The notes below the pieces were generated by a model. That model was not told the origin of the DNA and searched no databases. It worked only from the letters and a program-made list of their open reading frames with translations. The translations under genes were made by a program, and so were the position numbers. Shown here one piece after another: positions 17,283 through 27,108 of a stretch of DNA of 64,000 bases; the stretch's first letter is position 1; every line of letters begins with the position of its first letter. The stretch spans positions 124,001 through 188,000 of the forward strand of contig JAHLKT010000001.1 in assembly GCA_020444545.1 (NCBI GenBank). Direction: 5' to 3'. Origin of the DNA: Desulfarculaceae bacterium (lineage in GTDB: Bacteria > Desulfobacterota > Desulfarculia > Desulfarculales > Desulfarculaceae).

Positions 17283-17684
17283 CTAGGCGCGCTGCTTCAC
17301 GTTCTGTTGGATGTACTCCACGATCTGGTGGGTGGAGGTGCCCGGGCCGAAGATGTCGGCCACGCCGGCCTCCTTCATGGCGGCCACGTCGCTCTCGGGG
17401 ATGACCCCGCCGCCCAGGACCAGCACCTCGTCGTCCAGGCCCTTTTCCTTGACCAGCTTCATCACCTCGGGGAAGAGATAATCGTGGGCCCCGGAAAGGA
17501 TGGACAGGGCGATGACGTCCACGTCCTCCTGGATGGCCGTGGCCACGATCTGCTCCGGCGTTTGCCGCAGGCCGGTGTAAATCACCTCCATGCCCGCGTC
17601 CCTAAGGGCCGCCGCGATGACCTTGACTCCCCGGTCGTGACCGTCCAGGCCGGGCTTGGCCGCCAATACTCTAATCTTGCGCAT
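17283..17684 (-). CDS. methylmalonyl-CoA mutase, cobalamin-binding subunit (C-terminal domain)
   Basis: B12-binding domain of methylmalonyl-CoA mutase as a separate 133-residue polypeptide. The lower-axial His motif GLDGHDRG is at about residues 13-20, followed by the conserved SILSGAH and GGGVIPESD loops. It pairs with the catalytic-domain protein encoded 13 bases upstream to interconvert succinyl-CoA and (R)-methylmalonyl-CoA. AGGAGGA precedes the ATG and overlaps the stop of the partner gene. The split arrangement is common in Archaea and in some bacteria. Confidence 0.94.
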
Positions 17685-17697
17685 GGCTTTGCTCCTC

Positions 17698-19353
<1,656 letters not shown>

Positions 19354-19365
19354 GTCTCCCCTCAA

Positions 19366-20931
19366 TCACATCGGCACGTTGCCGTGGCGGCGCTGGGGCC
19401 GGAAGGTGCGCTTGGTCTTGAGCACGTCCAGGGCGCGGATGAGCTTGGAGCGGGTCTGGCTGGGCAGGATGATCTCGTCGATGTAGCCCAGCTCCGCCGC
19501 CCGGTAGGGGCTGGCGAACTTGGCCCGGTACTGGCTCACCAGCTCCTGGTAGGTCGCGTCCTTGTCATCGGCCTGGTCCAGCTCCTTGCGGAACACGATA
19601 TTCACCGCGCCCTCGGGGCCCATCACCGCGATCTCGGCGGTGGGGTAGGCCAGGTTCACGTCCGCGCCGTGGTGTTTGGAGCCCATCACGTCGTAGGCCC
19701 CGCCGTAGGCCTTGCGGGTGATCACGGTGATCAGGGGCACCGTGGCCTCGCAGTAGGCGTAGATCAGCTTGGAGCCGTGGGTGATGATGCCGCCGTACTC
19801 CTGGTGCACGCCTGGCAGGAAGCCCGGCACATCCACGAAGGTGACCACCGGGATGTTGAAGGCGTCGCAGAAGCGCACGAAGCGGGCCGCCTTGCGGCTG
19901 GCGTCGATGTCCAAACAGCCGGCGAGCTGCATGGGGTTGTTGGCCACGATGCCCACGGCCATGCCCGCCAAACGGGCGAAGGCGGTGATCATGTTTTTGG
20001 CCCAGCCCTTGCTGACTTCGAAGAAGCTGTCGGTGTCCACCACCGTCTTGATCAGCTTCTTCATGTTGTAGGGCTGCTTGGAGCTGTCGGGGATAAAGGC
20101 GTCCAGCTCCGGCGCGATGCGGCTGGCCGGGTCGCCGGTGTGCTTCTCCGGCGGCTTCTCCTCCCAGTTGCTGGGCAGATACGAGAGCAAACGGCGCACC
20201 ATTTCCAGGCACTCGGCGTCGTCCTTGGCCATGAACTGGGCCACGCCGGACTTGGTGTTGTGCACCTTGGCTCCGCCCACCGACTCGCTGGTCACCTCCT
20301 CGCCGGTCACCGACTTGATGACCGCCGGGCCGGTGATGTGCATGTAGGAGGTCTGGTCCACCATGAAGATGAAGTCGGTGATGGCCGGGCTGTAAACCGC
20401 GCCCCCGGCGCAGGGGCCCATGATGGCGCTGATCTGGGGCACCACGCCGCTAGAGAGCACGTTGCGCCTAAAAATCTCGCCGTAGGAGCCCAGGGAGACC
20501 ACGCCTTCCTGGATGCGCGCGCCGCCCGAGTCGTTCAGGCCGATCACCGGAGCCCCGGCCTTTACCGCCAGGTCCATGACCTTGCAGACCTTCTCGCCGA
20601 AGGGGCCCGACAGCGAGCCGCCGAACACGGTGAAGTCCTGGCTGAAAACAAAAACCGGGCGGCCATTGACCCGCCCGAATCCCGTCACCACCCCGTCCCC
20701 GGGTATTTTGTTTTTTTCCATCCCGAAGTCGGTGCAGCGATGGACCACGAAGCGGTCGAACTCTTCGAAGGTCCCGGTGTCCAAGAGGGCCTCGATGCGC
20801 TCCCGGGCGGTCATCTTGCCCTTGGCGTGCTGGGCCTCGATGCGTTTTTCGCCCCCGCCCAACTGGGCCGCCGCGTCCCGGCGTACCAGATCTTCGATCT
20901 TTTCCTTGGTGGTGACCGGCACGTTCTGCAT
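19366..20931 (-). CDS. acyl-CoA carboxyltransferase subunit (propionyl-/methylmalonyl-CoA type)
   Basis: Biotin-dependent carboxyltransferase that moves CO2 between carboxybiotin and propionyl-CoA/methylmalonyl-CoA; PccB/MmdA/transcarboxylase-12S family. 521 residues with both crotonase-like halves. Visible features: [14 protein letters not shown] (about residue 130), [12 protein letters not shown] (acyl-CoA oxyanion site), [10 protein letters not shown] and [11 protein letters not shown]. The ATG at 20931 is preceded by GGGAGGT. Located between a small biotin carrier gene and mutase, so propionyl-CoA metabolism is likely. Whether it acts as carboxylase, decarboxylase or transcarboxylase cannot be decided because no biotin carboxylase or membrane subunit is nearby. 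Confidence 0.92.
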
Positions 20932-21010
20932 TACGAGGACCTCCCTCTTAACCGATTGCCTGCGCTCCTGCCGGAGCCGCCGCCCGCGCGGGGGGCCCCA
21001 AACAAACGAA

Positions 21011-21081
21011 GGCTGCCCAGAGCTGATTGGGGTTCAGTCCTGGGCAGCCCGCGGCCGCTGTCATAGCGGGGCCTGAACCCC
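21011..21081 (-). promoter_or_regulatory. pseudoknot-capable RNA between biotin carrier and carboxyltransferase genes
   Basis: Two perfect inverted repeats interlock in the 154-base spacer. GGCTGCCCAG (21011-21020) pairs with CTGGGCAGCC (21040-21049), and GGGGTTCAG (21029-21037), inside that loop, pairs with CTGAACCCC (21073-21081) outside it. On the minus strand the first stem is followed by TTCGTTTGTTT, a weak terminator-like tail. The arrangement could be a pseudoknot or an either/or attenuator or stability element. Function is inference. Confidence 0.55.
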
Positions 21082-21085
21082 GTTT

Positions 21086-21298
21086 TTAGCTGAGAACTAC
21101 CAGTACCTGCTCGGCTTCCACGGTCTGGCCCGGCTCAACCTTGATCTCGGCGACGGTGCCGTCTTCCTCGCACAGGATCGGCATTTCCATCTTCATGGCC
21201 TCGAGCACGGCCACTTCGTCGTCCTCGCCAATGGAGTCGCCGACGTTGACCGAGATCTTGATGACTTTGCCGCCCATGGGTGCTTTAATTTCTGCCAA
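21086..21298 (-). CDS. small biotin/lipoyl carrier protein (BCCP-like)
   Basis: A 70-residue stand-alone biotinyl domain with the biotin-attachment motif EAMKME (Lys36) and the flanking GDxIxxDDEV and VEPGQTV turns. The start is TTG at 21298, because GGGAGGT stands 5 bases upstream and the domain begins right there (MAEIKAPMGGKV); an ATG-started reading from 21415 would add 39 residues without homology. It carries carboxybiotin to the carboxyltransferase encoded next. It lacks the Ala/Pro-rich N-terminal region of typical acetyl-CoA carboxylase BCCPs and resembles transcarboxylase 1.3S or methylmalonyl-CoA decarboxylase gamma carriers. Confidence 0.88.
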   Translation of the reverse strand: MAEIKAPMGGKVIKISVNVGDSIGEDDEVAVLEAMKMEMPILCEEDGTVAEIKVEPGQTVEAEQVLVVLS

Positions 21299-21427
21299 GG
21301 TGTACCTCCCTATTGATCCTATGAGCCCAAAGGCCCCTGCGTTTTTGCCTGGTTGAACTTCGGTAAAAATGTCCCCGAAGAATAGACCGATACGGTGATT
21401 TTTGTCAAGTTCCAAGGAGATCGGCGG

Positions 21428-23260
21428 TTATTCCTCGGTGGTCTCCTCGTCTTCCAGTTTGGCCAGGTCCTCGAAACGTATATCCGCGCCCAATACGGCC
21501 ACGATATTTTCGTTGTCGTCGCGCAGGGGGCCGCTCAAGGTGATGCACAACGCGCCGGTGATCTTGCTGGTGTAGAACTCGCTCACATGGAGCTTGCCGT
21601 CCTTCATCGGCTTGATGAACCAGTCGCGGTCGCTGAAATCGGTATCCAACATGGCCGAGGAGTACTTGGCCCGGTCGGTGATGTTGGTGATGTTCTTGGT
21701 TATCTTGTAGCCCTGCGAGTTGACCACGTAGAGGAACTGGATGAAGGGGTTCTTGTCCAGGGCCTCCTGCAACAGGGGCTCGATGACCGCCGGGGCCATG
21801 GTCTTGAGCTCCGGGCGGTCGATGATCTCCTCGCCCAGGGACAGGGCCAGCTTTTTGGCGCGGTCCTTCAGGCGGTCGAACTGGCTGTAGAACAGCTCGG
21901 GCAACTGCTTGCGGGCCACCACCTCCAGCTCGGAGTTGCCGATGGAGGTCAGGCGTCCCTCCTCGTACTGCTCGGAGACCCACTTGTTGATCTTCAAAAT
22001 GCCCGGATGACGCTTGTCCACCCGCTTGTCGCCCTCCAGCTTGAGGCGCTGGTTGACCCAGTGGGCGATGGCCGCGGCCCCGCTCTTGTCGGTGATGGCG
22101 ATGGTGTAGGGCCGGTTGAGGATCTTCTCGGTGTCGAAGATGTTGTAGATCTCCGGGTTCTTCACCAGCCCGTCGGCATGGATGCCCGCCTTGGTGGAGT
22201 TGAAGTCGCGGCCCACGAAAGGGGTGGTGGAGGCGATGCGGTGGCCGATCTCCTTCTCGAAGTACTCGGCCAGGTCGGTGATCACCCTGGTGTCCATCCC
22301 GTCGGCCCTGCCCCGTAGCGAGATGTACTCGATGACCAGCGCCTCCAGGGGCGTGTTGCCGGTGCGCTCGCCAAAGCCCAGCACCGAGCTGTTGGCCCCG
22401 GCGCAGCCGTAGAGCCAGGCGGTGCTGGCGTTGATGAGCACCTTGTAGAAATCGTTGTGGCCGTGCCACTCCAGGAGCTTGCCCGGGCAGCCCGCGTCGT
22501 CGATCATGGCCCGCACCAGGCGGGGCACGCTGCGGGGCAGGGCCGCGCCGGGATAGGTGACCCCGTAGCCCATGGTGTCGCACAGGCGAATCTTGATGCC
22601 GATGCCCGACTCTTCCCGAAGCTTGGCCAGCTCACGGGCGAAGGGCACCACGAAGCCGTAGATGTCGGCCCGGGTGAGGTCCTCGAAGTGGCAGCGGGGG
22701 ATCAGCCCCAGGGACAGGGCGTCCTTGACCACCCCCAGGTAGCGGTCCATGACCTGGGCCCGGGTGAGGTTCATCTTGTGGTAGATGTGGTAGTCGCTCA
22801 CCGAAGTGAGGATGCCGGTCTCCTTGAGGCCCATCTTCTTGACCTCGGCCAGCTCCTCTTTCTTGGCGCGCACCCAGCCGGTGATCTCCGGGAAGCGGTG
22901 CCCCAGGGCCATGCACTGCTCCACCGCTTCCTTGTCCCGCTGGCTGTAGAGGAAAAACTCGCATTGGCGCACGATGCCCTTGGGACCGGAGAGCTTGTGG
23001 AGCATGTCATAGATGTCCACGATCTGTTTGGTCTTGTAGGGCGGGCGCGCCTGTTGCCCGTCACGGAAAGTGGTGTCGGTGATGAACATCTCCTCGGCCG
23101 GGTCCAGGGGCTGGACCATGTGGTCGAAGTCGGTGCGGCACACCTCGTCATAGGGGAAGATGTTGCGGAAGAGCTGCGGCTCCGCTTGGTCCACCAAACT
23201 GACGAAGTTGGGCTGATGCGTGTGGTCCAGCAAGCGGCGGCGCGGATTCCATTCAGCCAT
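21428..23260 (-). CDS. HMGL/isopropylmalate-synthase-like enzyme with C-terminal Cache-like domain
   Basis: 610 residues. Residues about 55-420 form an HMGL-type TIM barrel: DTTFRDGQQ (62-70), HGH metal motif (266-268), GFGERTGNTPLEA and GIHADGLVKNP, which are features of the isopropylmalate/homocitrate/(Re)-citrate synthase branch rather than the pyruvate carboxyltransferase (RDAHQ) branch. Residues about 500-605 look like a Cache/PAS-like sensory fold (NSQGYKITKN, DFSDRDWFIKP, YTSKITGALCITLS, VLGADIRFEDL), but there is no signal peptide or membrane segment. ATG at 23260 with GAGG six bases upstream. Context with methylmalonyl-CoA genes suggests acetyl-CoA plus 2-oxoacid condensation; (Re)-citrate synthase is a candidate, not proven. 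Confidence 0.82.
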   Translation of the reverse strand: MAEWNPRRRLLDHTHQPNFVSLVDQAEPQLFRNIFPYDEVCRTDFDHMVQPLDPAEEMFITDTTFRDGQQARPPYKTKQIVDIYDMLHKLSGPKGIVRQCEFFLYSQRDKEAVEQCMALGHRFPEITGWVRAKKEELAEVKKMGLKETGILTSVSDYHIYHKMNLTRAQVMDRYLGVVKDALSLGLIPRCHFEDLTRADIYGFVVPFARELAKLREESGIGIKIRLCDTMGYGVTYPGAALPRSVPRLVRAMIDDAGCPGKLLEWHGHNDFYKVLINASTAWLYGCAGANSSVLGFGERTGNTPLEALVIEYISLRGRADGMDTRVITDLAEYFEKEIGHRIASTTPFVGRDFNSTKAGIHADGLVKNPEIYNIFDTEKILNRPYTIAITDKSGAAAIAHWVNQRLKLEGDKRVDKRHPGILKINKWVSEQYEEGRLTSIGNSELEVVARKQLPELFYSQFDRLKDRAKKLALSLGEEIIDRPELKTMAPAVIEPLLQEALDKNPFIQFLYVVNSQGYKITKNITNITDRAKYSSAMLDTDFSDRDWFIKPMKDGKLHVSEFYTSKITGALCITLSGPLRDDNENIVAVLGADIRFEDLAKLEDEETTEE

Positions 23261-24058: not shown

Positions 24059-25852
<1,794 letters not shown>

Positions 25853-25854
25853 TT

Positions 25855-27108
25855 CTATTCTCCTGCCGCCGCCAGGCGGCTCACAATCTCGCCAAGGGGC
25901 AGCTCGCTCTGCTCGCCGCTGGCCATGTCCTTGAGCGGGGCCGCGCCTGCCTTGAGTTCCTCGCCGCCCACGATGAGCACCTGGGCCGCGTTCATTTTGT
26001 TGGCCCGGCGCATCTGGGCCTTGAGGCTCACGTCGCTGGAGCTCATCTCCACCCACAGGCCCTTCTTGCGTAAGCCCGTGGCCGCGCCAAAGGCCCATTC
26101 CCGGGGCTCGTCGCCCAGGGCGGCGATGAACAGAGCCGGTCCCTGTTGCCACTCGGGCCGGTCCTCGATGAGCAGCGAGAGCCGCTCTAGCCCCAAGGCG
26201 AAGCCGATGGCCGGAGTGGCCGGGCCGCCCAGGGCTTGGATCAGCCCGTCGTAGCGCCCTCCCCCGCCCACCGCGTCCTGGGCCCCCAACTCGCCGGTCT
26301 TGAACTCAAAGGCGGTGCGGGTGTAGTAGTCCAGGCCGCGCACCAGCTTGGGGTCCAGGGAATACTCCACCCCGGCCAGGTCCAGCAGGCGCTTCACCTG
26401 GTCGAAATGGGCCGAGCAGTCCGGGCACCAGGAGCCGGAGATCAGGGGCGCGCTGGCCGCGATCTCCTTGCAATCCTCCTGCTTGCAGTCCAGCACGCGC
26501 AGGGGGTTGTTGACCAGGCGCTTTTTGCAGTCCTCGCACAAACGGCCCTGCTTGCCCTCGAAGTAGGACAGAAGCGCCTCTTTGAACTGGGGACGGCACT
26601 CCGGGCAGCCCAGGGAGTTGAGCACGATCTCCACCTTGGACACGCCCAGGGTCTTCAGCAAATGGTCGGCCATGACCAGCAGCTCGGCGTCGCTCTGGGG
26701 CCCGGCGTCGTCCAGGACCTCGCAGTCGAGCTGGTGGAACTGGCGCAAGCGGCCCTTCTGGGGGCGCTCGTGGCGGAACATGGGGCCGATGGTGAACAGC
26801 TTGTGGGGGCCGGGGACCGCGTGGAGCTTGTGCTCCAGAAAAGCGCGCGCCACCCCGGCGGTGGCCTCGGGCCGCATGGTCAGCGAATCGCCGCTACGGT
26901 CCTCGAAGGTGTACATCTCCTTGGAAACGATGTCGGTCTCCTCGCCGATGGAACGGGCGAAAAGCTCGGTGCGCTCCAAGATGGGAACCCTTATCTCATT
27001 GAATCCGAAAGCCGCGAACGCTTCCCGGGCCGTGGCCTCGATGAAGCGCCACTTGGGGGCCTCGGGGGGCAAAAGATCCTTCATGCCCCTGACCGCCTGA
27101 ATGGCCAA
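25855..27108 (-). CDS. hisS: histidyl-tRNA synthetase
   Basis: 417 residues. Class II core with IQAVRGMKDLLPPE at the N-terminus, motif 2 region (MFRHERPQKGRLRQFHQ), the HisA/HisB loops (LVRGLDYYTRTAFEF and GGGGRYDGL) and the anticodon-binding domain at the end. An internal zinc-like segment with Cys pairs (CEDCKKR, CPDCSAHF) is a normal bacterial insertion. The start is probably TTG at 27108, because the conserved N-terminus begins there; upstream codons to 27252 show no homology and there is no suitable ATG. Ribosome-binding site is weak (AAGG, 10 bases). Confidence 0.93.
   Translation of the reverse strand: MAIQAVRGMKDLLPPEAPKWRFIEATAREAFAAFGFNEIRVPILERTELFARSIGEETDIVSKEMYTFEDRSGDSLTMRPEATAGVARAFLEHKLHAVPGPHKLFTIGPMFRHERPQKGRLRQFHQLDCEVLDDAGPQSDAELLVMADHLLKTLGVSKVEIVLNSLGCPECRPQFKEALLSYFEGKQGRLCEDCKKRLVNNPLRVLDCKQEDCKEIAASAPLISGSWCPDCSAHFDQVKRLLDLAGVEYSLDPKLVRGLDYYTRTAFEFKTGELGAQDAVGGGGRYDGLIQALGGPATPAIGFALGLERLSLLIEDRPEWQQGPALFIAALGDEPREWAFGAATGLRKKGLWVEMSSSDVSLKAQMRRANKMNAAQVLIVGGEELKAGAAPLKDMASGEQSELPLGEIVSRLAAAGE

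Follow-up and report, generated by a model that had tools for sequence, protein, structure and literature searches.

In many anaerobes, sulphate reducers and syntrophs included, glutamate synthesis and the oxidative branch of the TCA cycle start from (Re)-citrate synthase. The enzyme of Clostridium kluyveri is reportedly the subject of a study by Li et al. in 2007, and we know of no description of how (Re)-citrate synthase is regulated. LeuA and homocitrate synthase each combine an HMGL barrel with a further domain on its C-terminal side, which in LeuA occupies the position of an end-product sensor. Cache domains are known from other settings. In KinD of B. subtilis (pyruvate), which has a double Cache, and in CitA (citrate) they are extracytoplasmic and feed a kinase. 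The survey that defined Cache domains identified them only in proteins that also have a signalling output domain, and it also gives precedent for Cache domains inside the cell (2016, PMC4822843). Syntrophus aciditrophicus, which belongs to the same phylum as the organism studied here, is cited in PMC12016533 as having an established (Re)-citrate synthase.

The window analysed in this report, a stretch of 64,000 nucleotides from a Desulfarculaceae bacterium, contains a gene whose product joins an HMGL-type enzyme to a C-terminal Cache domain (Table 1). The domain shares its fold with KinD and CitA. However, it is a single Cache, it is predicted to be cytosolic, and its partner is a metabolic enzyme and not a signalling output. 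The LeuA domain is of a different fold and is absent from this protein. An earlier note on the same DNA had located the gene correctly; the strand, which it did not give, is minus, the reading frame running from an ATG at 23260 to a stop codon at 21430..21428 and encoding 610 amino acids. The M-x-x-W-N start common to the relatives in the alignment backs this ATG.

Table 1. Features of the HMGL-Cache gene and its neighbours (positions in the window).
Feature	Position	Strand	Basis
HMGL-Cache protein (610 aa), putative (Re)-citrate synthase with C-terminal cytosolic Cache	21428..23260	-	ORF, Pfam, relatives
HMGL/Claisen catalytic barrel and HCS_D2 subdomain, residues 60-404	22049..23083	-	Pfam, alignment, Foldseek
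Conserved post-barrel helices, residues 405-455, shared with Cache-less clostridial orthologues	21896..22048	-	Clostridial comparison, AlphaFold model
Cache/PDC domain with its own N-terminal helix, residues 460-604	21449..21883	-	Pfam, profile matches, AlphaFold, Foldseek, VIA-align
Small biotinyl-carrier protein, BCCP-like, EAMKMEM biotinylation motif; downstream neighbour	21086..21415	-	ORF
Carboxyltransferase, methylmalonyl-CoA decarboxylase alpha / propionyl-CoA carboxylase beta type	19366..20931	-	TIGR01117 813 bits, below cut-off
Methylmalonyl-CoA mutase large subunit	17698..19365	-	TIGR00641
Methylmalonyl-CoA mutase B12-binding subunit	17283..17684	-	TIGR00640
Aspartyl-tRNA synthetase (aspS), upstream neighbour	24059..26152	-	Synteny

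The motifs DTTFRDGQQ, HGH and DRDWF, all recognized in the earlier note, lie at residues 62-70, 266-268 and 544-548. In the Pfam scan, HMGL-like (PF00682) covered residues 60-332 (E 4.6e-26) and HCS_D2, the post-barrel domain of homocitrate synthases, residues 355-404. The profile search that the earlier note had proposed for the C-terminus returned MCP-like_PDC_1 (PF22673) at 493-600 (E 2.9e-14; 53.9 bits, cut-off 27), and dCache_1 at 484-599 with a score slightly below its cut-off (41.7 bits against 45). Apart from the Cache, only enzyme domains were found by Pfam. The view that the protein has no transmembrane segment also held, the best 19-residue Kyte-Doolittle mean being 0.85. An extracytoplasmic site between membrane helices, which is typical of Cache domains though not required of them, is absent here, and since there is no membrane segment and all partners are enzyme domains, the domain is a Cache by homology and not a receptor.

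Structure prediction, the second check that had been proposed, agreed with the profiles. When the C-terminal 156 residues were folded alone, AlphaFold gave a model with a pLDDT of 88 and a pTM of 0.84, for which Foldseek ranked the sensors KinD and Tlp3 at the top, and VIA-align yielded Z 16.0 against KinD and Z 15.4, at 2.1 Å rmsd, against the citrate sensor CitA. Profile matches among the sequences of solved structures were the KinD, Tlp3 and PctA sensors; YkuI was a weak structural match. On these models the C-terminus is certainly of the Cache fold. The LeuA dimer domain is ruled out by Pfam, Foldseek and VIA-align alike, so that neither this domain nor an unrelated fold, which the earlier note had named as contrary outcomes, was found. 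The Cache is complete and single, is no fragment, and spans residues ~460-604 including a long N-terminal helix; its C-terminal placement was rightly called, where LeuA has its allosteric domain, but it is longer than the '105 residues' first assigned to it. The full-length protein was modelled with a pLDDT of 89 (59 aligned sequences), and the best Foldseek matches of its barrel were homocitrate synthases. The catalytic and metal residues R66, D67, Q70, H191, E193, H266, H268, N302 and H361 are invariant in all 58 Cache-bearing rows of the alignment.

As regards enzyme identity alone, there is a strong case, mainly from gene content and gene neighbourhoods, for a (Re)-citrate synthase of the C. 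kluyveri type. We found no PF00285 (Si-)citrate synthase in its own genome, which is 100% complete and has aconitase-family genes. Among 197 genomes of the phylum, the enzyme family occurs in 101 and a full Si-citrate synthase in 102, with 19 genomes holding both and 13 neither; the Si-enzyme is absent from 82 of the 101 family carriers and present in 83 of the 96 non-carriers. This exclusion corresponds to an odds ratio of 0.036 (Fisher p = 9e-23), a value uncorrected for kinship. In the window's own taxonomic family (20 genomes) the sole non-carrier has a Si-citrate synthase. The exclusion is weak in Clostridia, where 35 of the 66 family carriers also have the Si-enzyme (odds ratio 0.48, p = 0.012), in agreement with the known coexistence of both citrate synthases in that class (PMC6115520).

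The genes beside the orthologues point in the same direction. Isocitrate dehydrogenase and/or aconitase-family genes follow Cache-bearing orthologues in Desulfovibrio, Syntrophorhabdaceae, Omnitrophota, Elusimicrobia, Nitrospirae and others, and the neighbouring dehydrogenases tested with NCBIfam score as isocitrate dehydrogenase rather than LeuB; at one locus (L029) the scores were 517 bits for isocitrate dehydrogenase (cut-off 490) and 136 bits for leuB (cut-off 353). In Syntrophorhabdaceae the downstream genes have a leuC-D-B-like order, and a LeuC/LeuB reading of them was considered and rejected, the dehydrogenase being a curated isocitrate dehydrogenase match that falls far below leuB. 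Clostridial orthologues belong to the same HMGL family and mostly stand beside aconitase: ten of their neighbour genes were scanned, of which seven were aconitase and one isocitrate dehydrogenase. This is the same arrangement as that of a C. thermocellum gene, 61% identical to the verified Re-citrate synthase of C. kluyveri, which adjoins aconitase (PMC6115520). The Cache-less clostridial relatives in our comparison are 46-61% identical to the barrel region. The aconitase/isocitrate dehydrogenase neighbourhood, met in many relatives, is not found in the window, where genes of a propionyl-CoA pathway take this place.

The earlier note had listed several condensing enzymes as options, and (Re)-citrate synthase is the one that fits best, the others (isopropylmalate synthase etc.) being disfavoured. 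That the protein is an isopropylmalate, citramalate or homocitrate synthase could be argued from its best NCBIfam matches, the nifV homocitrate synthase at 138 bits and an archaeal LEU1 at 115 bits. However, the respective cut-offs are 463 and 485, and with all curated synthase models so far below cut-off the protein falls outside the LeuA, NifV and CimA families that those models name. The genome moreover has its own LeuA (744 bits), citramalate synthase (691 bits) and HMG-CoA lyase (NCBIfam), so that those jobs are taken. Together with the lack of a LeuA dimer domain and with orthologues that adjoin isocitrate dehydrogenase rather than LeuB, these results leave such an identity very improbable. 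Misannotation of (Re)-citrate synthases as homocitrate or isopropylmalate synthase is itself on record (PMC12016533).

Downstream of the HMGL-Cache gene in Desulfarculaceae, at 17283-21415 in the window, a biotin carrier, a carboxyltransferase and a two-subunit mutase form one minus-strand block. Partial versions of it were seen at four other loci (L006, L008, L011, L020), and most orthologues are without it. The block fits a route from propionyl-CoA to oxaloacetate that would feed citrate synthesis. The same proximity allows another reading, in which the HMGL-Cache protein is a 5S-like carboxyltransferase that partners the adjacent biotin carrier and the 12S-like subunit, as in a methylmalonyl-CoA:pyruvate transcarboxylase: the gene lies directly upstream of the biotin carrier, carboxyltransferase and methylmalonyl-CoA mutase genes and would supply the third subunit. 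Yet the Pfam scan found no PYC_OADA domain after the barrel, unlike in 5S and pyruvate carboxylase proteins, the genome has a separate 5S-type protein (a 535-aa PYC_OADA frame on C6), and the best curated models are synthases of the NifV/LeuA type. Moreover, the biotin carrier and carboxyltransferase neighbours are restricted to Desulfarculaceae and a few others. We regard a transcarboxylase role as improbable in the extreme, and retain (Re)-citrate synthase. On the upstream side, aspS is close to the gene in most Desulfobacterota loci from many families (L003-L054), a synteny that probably reflects vertical inheritance.

At least 587 relatives emerged when 84,980 species genomes were scanned, and the best 80 loci were fetched. 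Aside from loci cut by contig ends, nearly all of these 80 have the whole barrel-Cache architecture. Carriers are found in Thermodesulfobacteriota, Nitrospirota, Spirochaetota, Omnitrophota, Lentisphaerota, Elusimicrobiota, Armatimonadota, Fibrobacterota, Margulisiibacteriota, Auribacterota and others, in all more than ten phyla. Because the full-length fusion recurs at nearly all of the 80 loci and in many phyla, it is neither a chance event nor an assembly join. The 'borrowed sensor' of the earlier note is an old and widely conserved part of the family, and not an oddity of a single genome.

Within the window's phylum the Cache is present in 98 of the 101 genomes with the family. The other three have Cache-less versions (L145, L146 and L147, in genomes G029, G044 and G136); one of these, L146, is placed among clostridial sequences on the barrel tree, which suggests that the short form reached it by horizontal transfer. 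Clostridia, the class of a clostridial relative, differ consistently: the family occurs in 66 of 291 genomes, and in contrast to the HMGL-Cache protein all 66 clostridial members end at about residue 445-470 without a Cache. Mapped on the barrel tree, the Cache label needs 3 changes, against a mean of about 20 for shuffled labels. The tree puts Clostridia inside the Cache-bearing lineages. As evidence for a single gain of the Cache with loss in Clostridia, this placement is to be interpreted with caution, since support for the deep branches is weak and a very long branch leads to the outgroup.

Some members vary in length. Orthologues of Syntrophales/Syntrophaceae (L019, L021, L023, L027, L030) have an extra ~20-25 C-terminal residues past the Cache helix, and several of family f32 (among them L148 in G077, and those of G193 and G157) lie in much longer open frames of 709-1014 aa, which perhaps are N-terminal extensions or merely open upstream frames. 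A search of plasmids returned only distant Deinococcus homologues and weaker matches. The homologue on the Deinococcus plasmids NZ_CP031163.1 (94541-95797) and NZ_CP097152.1 is 37% identical, lacks the Cache part and is labelled 'pyruvate carboxyltransferase'; its hosts are aerobes.

The pocket of the Cache is lined by R545, W547, F548, Y563, S565, T574 and D593. Across phyla, W547, S565, L571 and D593 are kept in all 58 alignment rows, F548 in 57, R545 in 53 and Y563 in 48, and many other positions of the domain vary. R545 aligns with the arginine R131 of KinD, the residue altered in the R131A structure (4jgq); the wild-type KinD sensor domain was solved with pyruvate (4jgo/4jgp). It also aligns with R126 of PctA. 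The dCache_1AA motif, which we take to comprise Y121, R126, W128, Y129, D131, Y144 and D173 in PctA numbering, has counterparts in R545 (R126), W547 (W128), F548 (Y129, as F), Y563 (Y144) and D593 (D173). In PctA, R126 bonds the carboxylate of the ligand, and roles are described for several other motif positions (PMC10104139). The full motif is absent from the alignment, the position of D131 (550) being variable and Y121 having no clear match. With position 550 variable and R545 lost in 5 of 58 rows, one common ligand for the whole family is not certain. Some members of one branch from Fibrobacterota, Lentisphaerota and Spirochaetota (L064, L066, L077) have H, K or S in place of R545, and ligand or function may have changed there. 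The dN/dS of the Cache core is 0.06-0.13, comparable to that of the barrel, and purifying selection on the Cache is as strong as on the barrel.

These data bear on whether the Cache is only structural, being a leftover, or a module for oligomerisation that has no ligand and simply lends the (Re)-citrate synthase stability. The domain is missing altogether from the clostridial enzymes, so it seems dispensable for catalysis and could be structural only, and the replacement of R545 in part of the branch just mentioned can be read in the same way. PAS and Cache domains also act as dimerisation domains (PMC8694187). However, a purely structural role would not predict the keeping of the carboxylate-binding set of KinD and PctA, and it sits poorly with four invariant residues (W547, S565, L571, D593) and an R545 held in most rows in a domain whose other positions vary. 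Overall, we consider a structural role rather unlikely.

We hypothesize instead, and consider it likely, that the protein acts as a (Re)-citrate synthase and that its Cache works in the cytosol as an allosteric domain responding to a small carboxylate. According to this hypothesis the metal-dependent HMGL barrel would condense acetyl-CoA and oxaloacetate to citrate and so replace the missing ordinary (Si-)citrate synthase, and the C-terminal 150 residues, a complete single Cache that has no membrane helices, would act as a sensor in the cytosol. Through R545, W547, Y563 and D593 the Cache could bind a small carboxylate, be it an amino acid or a 2-oxo acid (e.g. pyruvate). We infer that the Cache regulates the enzyme: binding would adjust the activity or the assembly of the barrel, much as leucine acts through the unrelated LeuA domain. 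By analogy with LeuA-type enzymes, plausible candidate effectors are glutamate, as the end product of the pathway, and a 2-oxo acid of central metabolism.

An enzyme of this architecture has probably been purified already. Cache-bearing orthologues in the family of L027, a Syntrophaceae genome, have 602-633 aa and masses of 68.1-72.1 kDa, and Cache-less enzymes, of about 450-470 aa, have an expected mass of about 50 kDa. Kim et al. in 2013 reportedly gave ~72.9 kDa for the subunit of the S. aciditrophicus (Re)-citrate synthase with a Strep-tag, an enzyme which we take to be SYN_02536. Judged by that reported mass, the purified enzyme probably has the same barrel-Cache architecture, and a Cache-bearing (Re)-citrate synthase has probably already been characterised without the domain being noticed. 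We know of no report that recognises a sensor domain at its C-terminus. Automated domain databases presumably display the union already. Among the matches listed by a search of openly available papers, none treated a Cache domain together with these enzymes. The kind of enzyme and the kind of domain are each known, and in the papers searched the joining of the two into a conserved cytosolic architecture appears to be undescribed.

In conclusion, the presented data raise the possibility, which we rate as evenly balanced, that in anaerobes from more than ten phyla an enzyme of central metabolism is under the direct control of a cytosolic Cache, which would bind a small carboxylate or amino acid and so set the flux of acetyl-CoA into citrate. 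For annotation, the results would correct many genes of the family that now bear the names of other synthases. If the allosteric reading is true, this would be, as far as we know, the first described Cache to act as the allosteric domain of a metabolic enzyme. If the Cache is a control element, the Cache-less clostridial enzymes would be its natural controls, and the role of Cache domains would widen beyond signalling outputs.
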